A DNA stretch of 25,563 nt from a virus, in the IMG/VR virus record IMGVR_UViG_3300021961_000574, positions 1 through 25,563 of that record, one strand, 5' to 3'. The position numbers and the translations under genes are program-made. Every line of letters starts with the position of its first letter. Within the stretch, counting starts at the first letter, position 1. This document shows positions 2,414 to 16,499 of this stretch, piece after piece. The notes beneath the pieces are model-generated. The model was not told the DNA's origin and made no database searches. It saw only the letters and a list, made by a program, of their open reading frames with translations.

Positions 2414-3010
2414 ATGATGCCAGTTGATGCCTATCGTTGTTATCTGTCTTTGAAAAATCACTTCACCAAAGACAGTTATGATTACCACAAATACTGTGGT
2501 AAAAGTCGCGCTACAGTTCAATCTTTTTATAAACGTAAAGATCGCTTCTGGTTTGAAAAAGTTTCTAGGCAAAAAACAGATCAAGAAATAGTAGAGTTTT
2601 TTGTTTCCAATTTCATTAGTTGTACTGATCCAAGTAAATTGTGGATCGGTGAAATGATGAGAGAGGGTGATGATAGGTATGAGCAATGGAAGAAAAGGAA
2701 TCAATCATTGTCATACGTTTTCAAGGAAGAATCTGAAAAGTTATTTGAAAATAAAAAACTTGAAGAGGTATTTGATTGTAAAAAAGGTCATCCGCCTATT
2801 CTTAAAAATTTCCTGAGCGGGAATATTAGTATAGAAACCCTAGTCATATACGATAGAATTTTCCTGTTCGGGAATAAATTTGATAAGAGACTCAAAGACC
2901 CAGTGTGGGAAACCGTCAGTATGAAAATGAAAAAATATTCTCCGTTTCTAAATATTGATGTACTCCGTTATCGTAAAATTTTGAAGGAAATTATTTTGGG
3001 GGACTCATGA
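2414..3010 (+). CDS. 59: gp59 loader of the replicative helicase
   Basis: A 198-aa protein matching T4 gp59 (217 aa), which loads gp41 helicase onto gp32-covered forks and recombination intermediates. Recognisable segments are the N-terminal PVDAYRCYLSLKNHF with SYDYHKYCGK, the central FFVSNFISC and LWIGE, and the C-terminal helical half with hydrophobic and basic residues. Tandem ATGs lie at 2414 and 2417; either could be the start, 3 or 6 nt after the gene 33 stop. The downstream gene overlaps its stop by 4 nt. The position between 33 and 32 is the T4 order and supports the call. Confidence 0.9.
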   Translation: MMPVDAYRCYLSLKNHFTKDSYDYHKYCGKSRATVQSFYKRKDRFWFEKVSRQKTDQEIVEFFVSNFISCTDPSKLWIGEMMREGDDRYEQWKKRNQSLSYVFKEESEKLFENKKLEEVFDCKKGHPPILKNFLSGNISIETLVIYDRIFLFGNKFDKRLKDPVWETVSMKMKKYSPFLNIDVLRYRKILKEIILGDS

Positions 3011-3351
3011 GTTTTTTTAATTCTGAAGTTGTCCGTGCAGAGATGACTGAAATTAGCGAACTACAAGAAGAAGTTTACCAAAACGTCTTCAAGTTTCCTA
3101 CAATGAGTAGGGAAGAAAAGTTATATCATGTCAGTGTTCTCGAAAAACTTCTTGATAAACAAAAAATTCTGTATACCAGATTGAGTTTATCTGATGATCC
3201 TGAAGCAATTAAAATGAAAGAACGAATTGCAGAATCAGCATCTATGATGGGTCTTCCATCTGGTGTTGATATGAATGTCATTTTCTCAAACATGTCCAAA
3301 ATGCTTGAGGTGATGAAGGAACAGATTGACAAGACAGGTTCAGACCTGTAG
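3007..3351 (+). CDS. DUF1825-like conserved protein between 59 and 32
   Basis: A 114-aa, mostly helical, acidic protein. Its front, MSFFNSEVVRAEM, resembles the MxFFDSExVQxE start of the cyanobacterial DUF1825 family, and the segment LLDKQKILYTRLSLSDDPEA fits the same family. Cyanobacterial genomes carry this family, so a host-derived or shared cyanobacterial origin is plausible; its function is unknown. The ATG overlaps the gp59 stop (ATGA). Its stop codon lies inside the hairpin of the candidate gene 32 leader pseudoknot, so translation through this gene should melt that structure. I am fairly sure it is a gene and less sure of the family. Confidence 0.8.
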   Translation: MSFFNSEVVRAEMTEISELQEEVYQNVFKFPTMSREEKLYHVSVLEKLLDKQKILYTRLSLSDDPEAIKMKERIAESASMMGLPSGVDMNVIFSNMSKMLEVMKEQIDKTGSDL

Positions 3352-7166: not shown

Positions 7167-8159
7167 ATGCCTGCCCCAGTCAGAAAAGCAGTTGCAGATA
7201 TTAAATCTCAACTCTTCAATCCAGCTCTCACATCACATTTTCAATGTTATTTTCAACCACCACAACCGGTGATTGACTGGATAAACCAACAGAGTTCTGT
7301 TGGGTATGGTCTTCCCTATGACAATCGCAATGATGAATTTATTTCCATTGCGTGTATGGAAGCATCACTTCCAGGTTCTAACTTGATGACTCATGAACAA
7401 ACAAACGATTTTCATGGCATAACTGAGAGACATGCTTATAGAAGAGATTATGGAACTGGTGCAGACTTCACTTTTATGGTTGATAATAACCACAATATAA
7501 TTTTCTTTTTTGAGAATTGGATTAGGTATATTGTGAATGAAAGACATGGTGGCACTCAAGACTACCCTGATATGTACAATTATACGAATGGATATAGCAG
7601 AGTAAATTATCCTAACAACTATAAAGCTCCTTACGGTCTGTATATTAGTAAGTTTGAAAGAGATTATGAGGGTAGTTTAGGTATTACATATCAATTTTTG
7701 AATGCATATCCAACTTCAATTACATCAATGCCGATTTCTTATGAGTCTTCACAGTTATTAAAGTGTACAGTTACCTTTACTTACACAAGGTATATTGCAG
7801 CTCCTTCATCTCCACCAAATGTTCAACCTGCACAAAATACTGCAATACCTTTACCAGTTATCAATTATACTGGTGGAGCAAGAAGACAGGATTTAGACAT
7901 CTGGGCACTTCAGAATCAATCAATGATTAGGAGTGTGGGAACCGCAGATCAAAGAGCACTTCTTCGTGATGTTCAATCATTTTATGGTGGAAATTCTGGA
8001 GCTCAGCAGAACTTACAGAGACTTACAAATCAGGGTGGATACACTGCAGGAACTAACGGTGCATTCAGTGGACAGGCATTACCTGGAACTAATTTAAACT
8101 TTGCAACTCTAAGTCAACCAGTTGGTAATGCTCCAACCAATCCCCTTCTTGGAAATTGA
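7167..8159 (+). CDS. 54: gp54-like baseplate-tail tube junction protein
   Basis: A 330-aa protein close in length to T4 gp54 (320 aa), which caps the baseplate and initiates tail tube polymerisation. The middle resembles the tail-tube fold shared by gp19, gp48 and gp54: an ACMEASLPGSN segment, a beta strand ADFTFMVDNNHNIIFFFENW, then LLKCTVTFTYTRYI. The C-terminal 90 residues are low complexity and rich in Q, N, G and P. It sits in the divergent start of the tail module, next to gp26. The 54 assignment rests on fold-like pattern, length and context rather than a strong sequence match; another tube-like baseplate protein is the alternative. Confidence 0.62.
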   Translation: MPAPVRKAVADIKSQLFNPALTSHFQCYFQPPQPVIDWINQQSSVGYGLPYDNRNDEFISIACMEASLPGSNLMTHEQTNDFHGITERHAYRRDYGTGADFTFMVDNNHNIIFFFENWIRYIVNERHGGTQDYPDMYNYTNGYSRVNYPNNYKAPYGLYISKFERDYEGSLGITYQFLNAYPTSITSMPISYESSQLLKCTVTFTYTRYIAAPSSPPNVQPAQNTAIPLPVINYTGGARRQDLDIWALQNQSMIRSVGTADQRALLRDVQSFYGGNSGAQQNLQRLTNQGGYTAGTNGAFSGQALPGTNLNFATLSQPVGNAPTNPLLGN

Positions 8160-8194: not shown

Positions 8195-8914
8195 ATGCCT
8201 TTACCAAAGATTTCTACACCAACATATGAGTTGGAATTGCCATCAACTGGACAGACAATTTATTTTAGACCGTTTCTAGTCAAAGAAGAAAAATTACTAG
8301 TTCTTGCATTAGAGACAGAGGATATTAAGCAAATTACTACAGCAATTAAAACAGTAATTAAGAGCTGTATTCAAACAAAGGGTATCAAAGTAGAATCTTT
8401 ACCAACTTTTGATATTGAATATTTGTTTCTTAACATTCGCGGAAAGTCTGTCGGAGAAGATATTGAAGTTAATTTAATTTGCCCTGATGATGGGGAAACT
8501 TCTATTCCTACTAAAATTCTGATTGATGACATTAAAGTTCAGAAGAGTGATGATCATACTACTGAGATCAAAGTAGATGATTCTATTACTATGAAAATGA
8601 AATATCCTTCACTTGATCAGTTTATTAAGAGTAACTTTGATTTTTCAGAGGACTCAACAATGGATCAATCATTTGATCTAGTTGCTTCTTGCGTTGAAAC
8701 AATTTATACGGAAGAAGAAACGTGGTCTACTGCAGATGTTTCCAAAAAAGAACTTATTGAATTTTTGGAACAGATGAATACTCAACAGTTTAAAGAAATT
8801 GAAAAGTTCTTTGAAACTATGCCAAAACTTTCTCACGAAGTTCAAATTAAAAATCCAGTAACTGGTGTTGAAAGTACAGTCAAATTGGAGGGACTGGCAA
8901 ATTTTTTCGCATAG
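8195..8914 (+). CDS. 26: gp26 baseplate hub/tail assembly protein
   Basis: A 239-aa protein matching the T4 gp26-type baseplate family (T4 gp26 is 208 aa): PLPKISTPTYELELPSTGQT, then YFRPFLVKEEKLLVLALE, helical TTAIKTVIKSCIQ and LPTFDIEYLFLNIRGKSVGE. The C-terminal half is helical and acidic. A zinc-like Cys pair is absent. The gene ends in GCA AAT TTT TTC GCA TAG, which contains overlapping -1 slippery heptamers preceded by GGAGGG, and the -1 frame leads into the next short ORF. In other tailed phages a protein at this position, before the tape measure, is a tail assembly chaperone made in two forms by frameshifting. That role is an inference here; the gp26 family call is secure. Confidence 0.88.
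   Translation: MPLPKISTPTYELELPSTGQTIYFRPFLVKEEKLLVLALETEDIKQITTAIKTVIKSCIQTKGIKVESLPTFDIEYLFLNIRGKSVGEDIEVNLICPDDGETSIPTKILIDDIKVQKSDDHTTEIKVDDSITMKMKYPSLDQFIKSNFDFSEDSTMDQSFDLVASCVETIYTEEETWSTADVSKKELIEFLEQMNTQQFKEIEKFFETMPKLSHEVQIKNPVTGVESTVKLEGLANFFA
8887..8908 (+). other. Candidate programmed -1 frameshift site
   Basis: GGAGGG (8887-8892) is an internal Shine-Dalgarno-like stimulator. It is followed by A_AAT_TTT (8899-8905) and the overlapping T_TTT_TTC (8902-8908), both in the X_XXY_YYZ register relative to gene 26. Spacing from GGAGGG is 6 nt to the first heptamer and 9 nt to the second, close to the E. coli dnaX arrangement. A -1 slip continues as FRIAMMYMNLSTYFEL and yields a 298-aa fusion. 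I see no strong downstream stem-loop. Confidence 0.7.
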
Positions 8915-8916
8915 CA

Positions 8917-9090
8917 ATGATGTATATGAATCTTTCAACTTATTTTGAGTTGAATTTTTCCTTGATGCAGTATCATAAATATTCATTGACAGAGATTGAA
9001 AATTGGATGCCTTGGGAAAGGGAAGTCTATGTTGCTATGTTACAGAATTACCTAGAGGAAGAAAGGTTAAAGCAACAAAATGGCTCCTAA
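8917..9090 (+). CDS. Short ORF, probable -1 frameshift extension of gp26
   Basis: A 57-aa ORF from ATG 8917, whose frame is open back to 8872, overlapping the end of gene 26 by 43 nt. The product is helical: LSTYFELNFSLMQYHKYSLT, EIENWMPWEREVYVAMLQNY, then a charged tail. The style is that of the C-terminal extensions (GT-like) of tail assembly chaperones. It lies in the -1 frame relative to gene 26 and directly before the tape-measure-like gene, whose start it overlaps (9080-9090). The ATG at 8917 has no ribosome site at usable distance; GGAGGG is 24 nt away, so reading by frameshift from gp26 is more likely than independent initiation. It could still be a separate small protein. Confidence 0.7.
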   Translation: MMYMNLSTYFELNFSLMQYHKYSLTEIENWMPWEREVYVAMLQNYLEEERLKQQNGS

Positions 9091-11536
9091 AAATATCAAT
9101 GACATCTTGAATTCAATGGGGGCAGGAGGTAATACTTCTGCCCTCACTCCTTATTCTGGAGGTAGAGGAGATACCAGGCTAGTAAATGAAACAATTGATG
9201 AAAGAATATTAAGATTACTGGGTCTTGATGACGTATTTGATATTGACTACGGAACTTATAAAACTCTTTTGAGAGAAAGACTTGCTGCGGCAAGAATGAG
9301 TAAATCAAAAATTCCAGCAGAAGAAGATGAATTACTGAGAAATGAGTTTAAAAGAATAAGAGGAAAAGAAGGAAGATTTAAAGTTAAGAAGAAAAAGATT
9401 ACTGCATCAAGTGCAGGTCTTGGCAGATCTTCAAGTGCTATTGTAAAGAGATCAAAGATTTCTGCTTTACCCGCATCTTTGAAAGTTCGTCCAGATGCAG
9501 GTGGAGAACAGCAATCTGGTATTCTTGAGAATTTAAAAACAATAAATCAGACGTTAGACAAACTTTTAAAAAACGTCATTAATCAAGGTCAGAGTGATCG
9601 TAAAAGAAGAGAAAAAGATAGAGTTGATAGTGAAAGACGTAAGGCACAAGAAAGAGAATCTGGACTTGAAAAACCACTACAGGTTGCAAAGTCATTAGTC
9701 AAGAAAGTAGTAGCACCTTTTCAAGGTATTCTTGATAGAGTTTTTAGATTTCTTGGATTTACTTTCCTTGGATGGTTAATTGGAAAGTATGAAGAAATAC
9801 AAAATTGGTTCTCTTCAAATCAAGATAAGATTACTGTAGTAAGCAGATTCTTAAAAGACTGGGGACCTGCATTACTTGGAGCATTTGTTTTATTTGCTAC
9901 TCCTTTTGGTGCATTTGTTCGTGGAACTTTGAAGATGTTGAGGTTCTTTATACCTCAGATCGTAAGGTTGATTGCAGCAAACCCCATGCTTGCTGGACTC
10001 ACTCTAGCGACTATTGGTGGAATAGCAAAGATAAAAGAATCTGAAAGGATGAAACCCTTGGTTGAAAAAGACCAAGCAGAAATAAATAAAACCTTAGAAA
10101 GTAAAGATGCTCCATGGTATGAAAAGTTAGGTGCAGGATTCGCAAACCAAAGTTTAAATGCTCCTGGAGGACCAAAAAATCCAACTGGATTGCCAATGCC
10201 AGGAAGTATGTTCTCTCGTGGTGGATCCATATTTGGATTTAAAAATGGTGCGGGTCTATTCTCTGGTCTTGTCGGTGGTAACAGTGGAATTCCTGTAACT
10301 GGATTTGGACAAGATACCCAGGCATTTCCTATTGAGGGTGGCGGAACTGCTGTACTGAAACCAGGCGAAGTTGTAATGAACACTTCTGCCGTAAACGCTA
10401 TTGGTGCAGATAGATTGTTGGGATGGAACAGGCAGTTTGGTGGTCCAAATGCAAACAAACCAGTAAACTTTACATACAACGGTGGTGGTGTTGTTGGTAT
10501 GCAGGGTGGTGGTATCCTTGGAGCACTTGGAAATCTTATCACTCAAAAAACTAAAGGATTGGGATTTGGTGGCGTAAGAGCTGGATTCACTGGAATGGGT
10601 CCCAAGGGATATAAGTCAATTAGTTCTGGTGAAGGTTATAAACTACCAACACAAAAATCATTATTTGGTAAAGGTTCTCGTCCTGTTCTTGGGCGTGGTG
10701 CTTATAATGCACCAACAATGAGAGGTGCCGGTAGATATAAGAAACCTGGTGGAGGAATTATTAAATCAATTGTTCCCAAAGGTGCAGTTGGAAGTTCTCT
10801 AGTGGATATATTTGAACCCCAATCAAGAGTTAGACCTCAAACTTTTGATAAAGGAAGAGAACTTGCAAACAGATTAATGAGTGGAAAGTATGCAAACAGT
10901 CCTCTTGCAAATCAACTTCGCCAACAATTGATGTCGGGACAAGCAGTTAGCACAATGTCAAAGGTTTCGGGATTAGGCAGAGGCGCAGCTGCTTTGAAAC
11001 TTTTGGGTGATTTGGGTAAATTTGGTAGTAAGTTTACTCGCATTCCTCTTCTGATGGATATGTTGTTCCCCGATCCAACATCGGCATATGATCAAGTTAC
11101 TGGACCGAATGCGTATTATAATGCACCTGGATATACTGGACCAAGACCATCTGGTTATCAAAAAGGTGGTGTTGTTCCAACTTTTGGTGGAAAACGAGGT
11201 GCTGATAATCTTTTAATACCACCAATGTTTTTACAACCTGGTGAACGTTTAGCAGTTCTTACAAAGAGATCTGTTGAACTTGGTTCTGTTGATGCTGTTA
11301 ATAAAACTCTTGCAGAGTTAGACCCAAATTCTAGACCAGCAAAATCTCAAAACTTAAAGAGAGATGTTGGACCAAAAGTTACTTTCATTAATCTACCAAC
11401 AGAAACTGTTTCTGCACAACCAAAAGGTGGTGGAGTTAATCCAGGAAAACCTCAACTACCTGAGTTTAGCGTCATTATGGATCATCCGAAGAGGATGGAA
11501 GTTGCAGCATCCCTAGGAATAGCAGATTTGGTGTAG
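9080..11536 (+). CDS. Large tail protein, probable tape measure (818 aa)
   Basis: An 818-aa protein. The N-terminal 220 residues are charged, with a coiled-coil-like stretch (GQSDRKRREKDRVDSERRKA). A hydrophobic region follows at about 223-317, starting with RFLGFTFLGWLIGKY and continuing through PALLGAFVLFATPFGAFV and NPMLAGLTLATIGGIAKI. Then come Gly-rich segments with the tape-measure-type phrase AVLKPGEVVMNTSAVNAIGA (about 425-444) and QPGERLAVLTKRSVE near the end. Position directly after gp26 and the frameshift ORF is the classical place of the tape-measure gene, which sets tail length and passes into the host envelope. It could be the counterpart of T4 gp29, but I cannot see sequence identity to it. 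It is related to the next gene by the RFLGFT motif. Confidence 0.7.
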   Translation: MAPKNINDILNSMGAGGNTSALTPYSGGRGDTRLVNETIDERILRLLGLDDVFDIDYGTYKTLLRERLAAARMSKSKIPAEEDELLRNEFKRIRGKEGRFKVKKKKITASSAGLGRSSSAIVKRSKISALPASLKVRPDAGGEQQSGILENLKTINQTLDKLLKNVINQGQSDRKRREKDRVDSERRKAQERESGLEKPLQVAKSLVKKVVAPFQGILDRVFRFLGFTFLGWLIGKYEEIQNWFSSNQDKITVVSRFLKDWGPALLGAFVLFATPFGAFVRGTLKMLRFFIPQIVRLIAANPMLAGLTLATIGGIAKIKESERMKPLVEKDQAEINKTLESKDAPWYEKLGAGFANQSLNAPGGPKNPTGLPMPGSMFSRGGSIFGFKNGAGLFSGLVGGNSGIPVTGFGQDTQAFPIEGGGTAVLKPGEVVMNTSAVNAIGADRLLGWNRQFGGPNANKPVNFTYNGGGVVGMQGGGILGALGNLITQKTKGLGFGGVRAGFTGMGPKGYKSISSGEGYKLPTQKSLFGKGSRPVLGRGAYNAPTMRGAGRYKKPGGGIIKSIVPKGAVGSSLVDIFEPQSRVRPQTFDKGRELANRLMSGKYANSPLANQLRQQLMSGQAVSTMSKVSGLGRGAAALKLLGDLGKFGSKFTRIPLLMDMLFPDPTSAYDQVTGPNAYYNAPGYTGPRPSGYQKGGVVPTFGGKRGADNLLIPPMFLQPGERLAVLTKRSVELGSVDAVNKTLAELDPNSRPAKSQNLKRDVGPKVTFINLPTETVSAQPKGGGVNPGKPQLPEFSVIMDHPKRMEVAASLGIADLV

Positions 11537-16283: not shown

Positions 16284-16499
16284 ATGGACAGAACAATCAA
16301 TCAGCACATAGAAGACGACCGCAATGAACTAGACGGTGCAAATGTGAGCTCACAACGTCGTCGTCATTTAGAAGATGAACTAACCTCACTTGAGAAATAT
16401 AAAAAAAATCATCCAGAGGATGAGCATGATCCAACTGGGTTGGAATTGTATTGTGATGAACACCCAGATGCTTCAGAGTGTAGAATTTATGAGGATTAA
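16284..16499 (+). CDS. CP12-like small protein in the tail cluster
   Basis: A 71-aa acidic protein. Its C-terminus, LELYCDEHPDASECRIYED, is the CP12 C-terminal signature, with two Cys (C57, C66) separated by eight residues and the terminal YED. In cyanobacteria CP12 binds GAPDH and PRK in the dark and halts the Calvin cycle; cyanophages are known to carry CP12 genes as auxiliary metabolic genes. The N-terminal half here lacks the first Cys pair and the AWDxVEEL core, having RRRHLEDELTSLEKYKKNHP instead, so PRK-binding features may be absent. It sits 5 nt after gp27 and 10 nt before the gp5-like gene, so it is expressed with tail genes. The motif is clear; function as a Calvin-cycle inhibitor is an inference. 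Confidence 0.75.
   Translation: MDRTINQHIEDDRNELDGANVSSQRRRHLEDELTSLEKYKKNHPEDEHDPTGLELYCDEHPDASECRIYED

Follow-up and report, generated by a model that had tools for sequence, protein, structure and literature searches.

In phage lambda the chaperone forms gpG and gpGT arise from a -1 slip at G_GGA_AAG close to the 3' end of the gene for the short chaperone, and in E. coli dnaX the heptamer A_AAA_AAG is combined with a Shine-Dalgarno-like motif about 10 nt 5' of it and a strong downstream hairpin. The two lambda products are made at a ratio of about 30:1, and G-T frameshifting is regarded in the review of Atkins et al. as conserved among long-tailed phages except T4 (PMC5009743). The tail assembly chaperone (TAC) of Pseudomonas phage Adele, of the family Vandenendeviridae, also involves a -1 frameshift; its site is T-rich, with the motif GTTTTT, and lies close to where TAC-N ends (PMC12846349). 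In T4 the two forms come from separate, divergently oriented genes, 26 and 51, so that no frameshift is needed. Frameshifting was reportedly found by Vladimirov and colleagues to be kept in several T4-like groups, with T4 relying on its genes 26 and 51.

The T4-like tail assembly chaperone genes were identified by Vladimirov, Gautam and Davidson (2022, Virology 566:9-15), a study represented here by papers that cite it: PMC12846349 credits it with poly-T -1 slippery sequences in T4-like TAC-N genes, and PMC10885494 cites it for T4-like phages that, in place of frameshifting, have one short gene and one longer, fused gene. Sullivan et al. (2010, PMC3037559) had in addition described that gp51 of cyanophages and marine vibriophages lacks the N-terminal ~200 residues present in the other form. 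As far as the citing papers convey the T4-like gp26/gp51 system, the locus analyzed here has the same genes and the same division into a short and a long form, and the central claim of a T4-like chaperone frameshift is, by their account, already known; a preliminary description of this DNA, made from its letters and a list of open reading frames, had been unaware of any report for T4-like phages and was preceded by that publication. The gain lies in confirmation and in the detail of the stimulators, namely synonymous constraint on a Shine-Dalgarno-like element and a covarying stem-loop, of which no description was found in the literature, Vladimirov et al. (2022) being covered through its citing papers.

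Compared with lambda, the likeness is architectural, with no sequence similarity claimed: a -1 slip is predicted close to where the short chaperone gene ends, immediately ahead of a presumed tape-measure gene, and the site is U_UUU_UUC. The resemblance to dnaX lies in the Shine-Dalgarno-like motif about 10 nt 5' of the heptamer, whereas the proximal hairpin is degenerate in this phage. Adele shares the T-rich -1 site near the end of TAC-N and differs in its motif and family.

Gene 26 and the adjacent reading frame

The window is the whole stretch of DNA that was analyzed, 25,563 nt of IMG/VR virus record IMGVR_UViG_3300021961_000574. Its gp26 has Synechococcus phage SynMITS9220M01 as closest named relative (75% identity). 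The features of the junction and its flanks are the following.

7167-8159, +, tail tube protein gene, upstream (phrog_45 E=9e-32; Pfam PF23849 E=2e-15)
8195-8914, +, gene 26, candidate short tail assembly chaperone (TAC-N), 239 aa (Pfam T4_baseplate PF12322 E=5e-73; phrog_150 E=1e-78)
8887-8892, +, GGAGGG, Shine-Dalgarno-like putative stimulator, 9 nt 5' of T_TTT_TTC and 6 nt 5' of A_AAT_TTT
8899-8905, +, overlapping heptamer A_AAT_TTT; in most relatives the codon preceding TTT is AGT, TCT, GAT, GGT, GCT or ACT
8902-8908, +, slippery heptamer T_TTT_TTC, the conserved predicted -1 slip site
8908-9090, +, -1 frame extension (gp51, TAC-C), 60 aa past the slip, stop at 9088-9090 (phrog_634 E=2.7e-24)
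8912-8914, +, 0-frame stop TAG, in the frame of the ORF, predicted to terminate the short form
8917-8919, +, ATG, in principle a stand-alone gp51 start
8919-8932, +, site of the proximal stem-loop of marine relatives, degenerate in the window
8934-8954, +, 9-bp stem TTCAACTTA-TTT-TGAGTTGAA, 25 nt past the heptamer, role putative
9080-11536, +, next gene, 818 aa, tape-measure candidate, its start overlapping the end of gp51

Read in the frame of its ORF, gene 26 ends with GCA AAT TTT TTC GCA TAG at 8897-8914, and the -1 frame runs without a stop from 8872 until 9088-9090; both had been noted in the preliminary description, as had the position of GGAGGG 6-9 nt upstream and the lack of a ribosome site for ATG 8917, and all were confirmed. 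The start of gene 26 at 8195 is preceded by AGGAG, whereas no Shine-Dalgarno lies near ATG 8917. A slip on T_TTT_TTC would yield a predicted fusion of 238 + 60 = 298 aa. The 57-aa ORF that had been termed hidden proved to be the known gp51 (PHROG 634, labelled "baseplate hub assembly catalyst"), which the annotations of many cyanophages, P-SSM2 among them, include.

Both parts are homologous to the T4 gp26/gp51 family through their matches to PF12322 and phrog_634, and T4 genes 26 and 51 belong to the same protein families as the pair in the window. T4 gp51 matches phrog_150 over its length and phrog_634 over its C-terminus, and its alignment runs unbroken through the predicted point of fusion; for T4 gp26 the gp26 family is the sole match. 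T4 gp51, which has the architecture of the fusion, would thus be its single-protein equivalent and T4 gp26 the equivalent of the short form. That T4 encodes the fusion as one protein supports the fusion as a functional long form elsewhere, and T4 gp51 itself becomes easier to interpret as the long form of the chaperone. Judged from these comparisons and those below, gene 26 and the adjacent small ORF very probably constitute one tail assembly chaperone unit, expressed as a short and a long form through a programmed -1 slip; if true, this would answer the question of how the two forms of the tail chaperone are produced in an abundant group of marine viruses.

Conservation of the slippery heptamer

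The junctions of 80 viral contigs from a first scan were combined with those of named phages and further contigs into 133 distinct, non-redundant junctions; two extra viral scans using divergent queries gained few loci. TTT TTC was present near the end of gp26 in all 80 first-scan contigs, and gp51 lay in the -1 frame in every one of the 79 contigs scored as well as in the named phages. The heptamer T_TTT_TTY occurred in 0-frame register in 131/133 junctions, its carriers including Kyanoviridae, Pelagibacter phage HTVC008M, Sinorhizobium phage phiN3, Stenotrophomonas phage DLP6, Caulobacter phage Cr30, Vibrio phage nt-1, Cronobacter phage LPCS28, and Aeromonas phage 65.2. The proposal of 239-aa and 298-aa forms made by a -1 slip, for which an alignment of the junction across relatives had been suggested, gained support from this comparison. 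Relatives without the heptamer, which had been named as evidence against the proposal, amounted to two Vibrio phages with gp26-like genes, K469 and VP-1, which may use another mechanism. In both of them the gp26-like gene is followed by a -1-frame ORF starting at TAATG.

The codon before TTT was AGT, TCT, GAT, AAT, GGT, GCT, or ACT (Ser, Asn, Asp, Gly, Ala, or Thr) and always ended in T, with a naive log10 P of -28.6 that is overstated since the sequences are related. Codons for different amino acids and from both Ser families (AGT or TCT) share the T ending, although only 60% of all Ser codons in these genes have T as third base and TCA alone accounts for 25% of them. Elsewhere in gp26, Phe-Phe is mostly written TTC TTT. 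Of the two overlapping heptamers to which slipping had been attributed, T_TTT_TTY was therefore the conserved one; A_AAT_TTT was not conserved and is probably incidental.

Within the window TTTTTTY is depleted (19 seen versus 40.8 expected), and the main ORFs, 7909 codons in all, contain just two in-frame T_TTT_TTY sites: one is at the second codon of another gene, the other at the end of gene 26, where GGAGG lies 10 nt upstream. Given this depletion, the mere two in-frame sites, and the conservation in 131/133 junctions, the arrangement of motifs at the gene 26 slip site is more than expected by chance. The other in-frame site reads T_TTT_TTT and belongs to the ORF at 3007-3351.

The upstream Shine-Dalgarno-like element

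Most gp26 genes encode Glu-Gly eight codons before the stop. These codons were GAG GGN or GAA GGG at 115/121 junctions compared to 7/37 at the other Glu-Gly pairs of these genes (Fisher p 8e-20, overstated by the relatedness of the sequences), and GAA was followed by GGG in 26/32 cases, GGG making up 6% of the Gly codons in these genes. The best Shine-Dalgarno-like motif was located 8-10 nt 5' of the heptamer in 126/131 relatives, close to the spacing in dnaX, and its duplex with the anti-Shine-Dalgarno averaged -7.0 kcal/mol versus -1.6 for controls, reaching -9.5 in the window. On the evidence of codon choice, the Glu-Gly codons are selected to spell a Shine-Dalgarno-like motif ahead of the heptamer, which supports the dnaX-like stimulator postulated in the preliminary description. 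Signal, register, and fusion architecture are thus all conserved among the sequences compared.

Alternatives to ribosomal frameshifting and the annotation of gp51

It is quite unlikely that gp51 is made solely as a separate small protein, through termination and reinitiation at ATG 8917, with the U run being mere coding sequence. Reinitiation would accord with the ATG close behind the stop in the window, with an ATG no more than nine codons from the heptamer in 113/131 relatives, with TGATG or TAATG overlaps in a few distant phages, and with the annotation of a separate gp51 gene in many records. Against it, ATG 8917 has no Shine-Dalgarno; no ATG is present within nine codons in 18/131 relatives and no ATG, GTG, or TTG in 15/131; and of the 25 named phages that carry the heptamer, 12 have no -1-frame ATG until about +50 or beyond, where it falls within the conserved domain. 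Reinitiation also leaves the T-ending codon, the heptamer, and the Shine-Dalgarno-like codon choice 8-10 nt upstream unexplained, and in T4 both parts are one protein.

The frame change could also stem from RNA polymerase slipping on the conserved run of six T rather than from the ribosome, yet six T is short for polymerase slippage, and the codon register and the Shine-Dalgarno-like element at ribosomal spacing are conserved while neither is needed by the polymerase, leaving this source highly improbable. The idea that the signal is a by-product of conservation of the protein (Leu-Glu-Gly ... Phe-Phe) with no recoding role draws on a gene end that is indeed conserved as protein, Gly and Phe-Phe being invariant in an 11-sequence alignment, and is scarcely credible in view of the constrained synonymous choice (AGT or TCT for Ser, GGG after GAA, and TTC TTT for most Phe-Phe elsewhere).

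Across public cyanophage and T4-like records the start of gp51 varies or the gene is omitted. Its start is put at an internal ATG in S-RIM2, Syn33, Syn19, and P-TIM40, only 31 codons of it are annotated in ACG-2014a, and it is missing from the annotation of ACG-2014d, S-WAM1, ACG-2014e, S-CAM1, LPCS28, and Aeromonas 65.2. Such variable or absent annotation is what a gp51 without its own start codon predicts, and the frameshift reading of the junction corrects it.

Proposed mechanism and downstream RNA structure

For programmed ribosomal slipping, we infer both the event itself and its frequency: most ribosomes would stop at TAG 8912 and release the 239-aa short form, while a fraction would pause as GGAGGG pairs with the 16S anti-Shine-Dalgarno. 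Paused ribosomes would slip back one base on U_UUU_UUC, with tRNA-Phe re-pairing UUU/UUU, and read on to 9088 to give the 298-aa long form.

Downstream of the heptamer, a 40-nt stretch beginning 5 nt past it gave a stronger fold than synonymously resampled versions of the -1 frame (mean z -1.76, n=131). Among 37 marine relatives, a stem of five pairs that begins 10 nt past the heptamer was 90% paired versus <=57% when slid, and showed 15 double-change cells versus 4.0 +/- 3.1 in shuffles, a covariation count that is not a blind test since the stem was picked after viewing the sequences. RNAalifold recovered only two pairs from the same 37 relatives, and other, longer stems were found near the same place in P-SSM2, Cr30, DLP6, and S-CAM1. 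In many marine relatives, a gp51-frame ATG (CATATGG) falls in or beside the loop of the covarying stem, just past the gp26 stop.

The window itself, read directly at 8919-8932, retains 4/5 pairs of the proximal hairpin with one G-U and one mismatch, GATGT and GAATC being mismatched where the relatives pair, and the hairpin was rejected there as a candidate. Folding of the whole 111-nt region of the window was no better than shuffles (z 0.26). A stem-loop is likely in relatives and unproven in the window. A terminator-like 12-pair stem was also observed at 9117-9146, shortly after the start of the 818-aa gene downstream of gp51.

A broader reading, with about even chances of being correct, is that the slip site is a three-part signal of Shine-Dalgarno-like codons, U_UUU_UUY, and a stem-loop. 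Even very distant T4-like phages would share the heptamer, and most of them the Shine-Dalgarno-like codons, and the stem-loop would persist at roughly the same place while being rebuilt in each lineage with a different sequence and able to decay, as in the window; the T4 lineage would have replaced recoding by two separate genes.

Proposed chaperone function and gene neighborhood

We infer the chaperone function of gp26 chiefly from published work on T4 and lambda. If the two forms act like lambda gpG/gpGT and T4 gp26/gp51, the short one would cover the tape-measure protein, with tail-tube subunits being recruited through the C-terminal extension of the long one. The tail tube gene at 7167-8159, directly upstream of gene 26, is a usual neighbor of tail assembly chaperone genes. 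An AlphaFold model of gp26, built from an alignment of contig proteins only, had a mean pLDDT of 85.8, and among the 50 PDB matches listed by Foldseek for this model the tail assembly chaperone HK97 gp13 (2OB9) had the highest probability (0.63-0.69), with non-significant E values of 1.3-1.4, such that the structural match is suggestive only. A search of solved structures by sequence returned nothing relevant for gp26 or its 818-aa neighbor, and NCBIfam held no relevant model.

The gene at 9080-11536 had been taken for the tape measure in the preliminary description. Its position and two hydrophobic segments fit this assignment and make it a candidate, whereas no significant tape-measure homology was found among phrogs (best match, weak, E=0.04) or solved structures.

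Further along the window, a CP12-domain gene was identified at 16284-16499 (PF02672 E=2e-14); CP12 is a regulator of the Calvin cycle and a known auxiliary metabolic gene in cyanophages.
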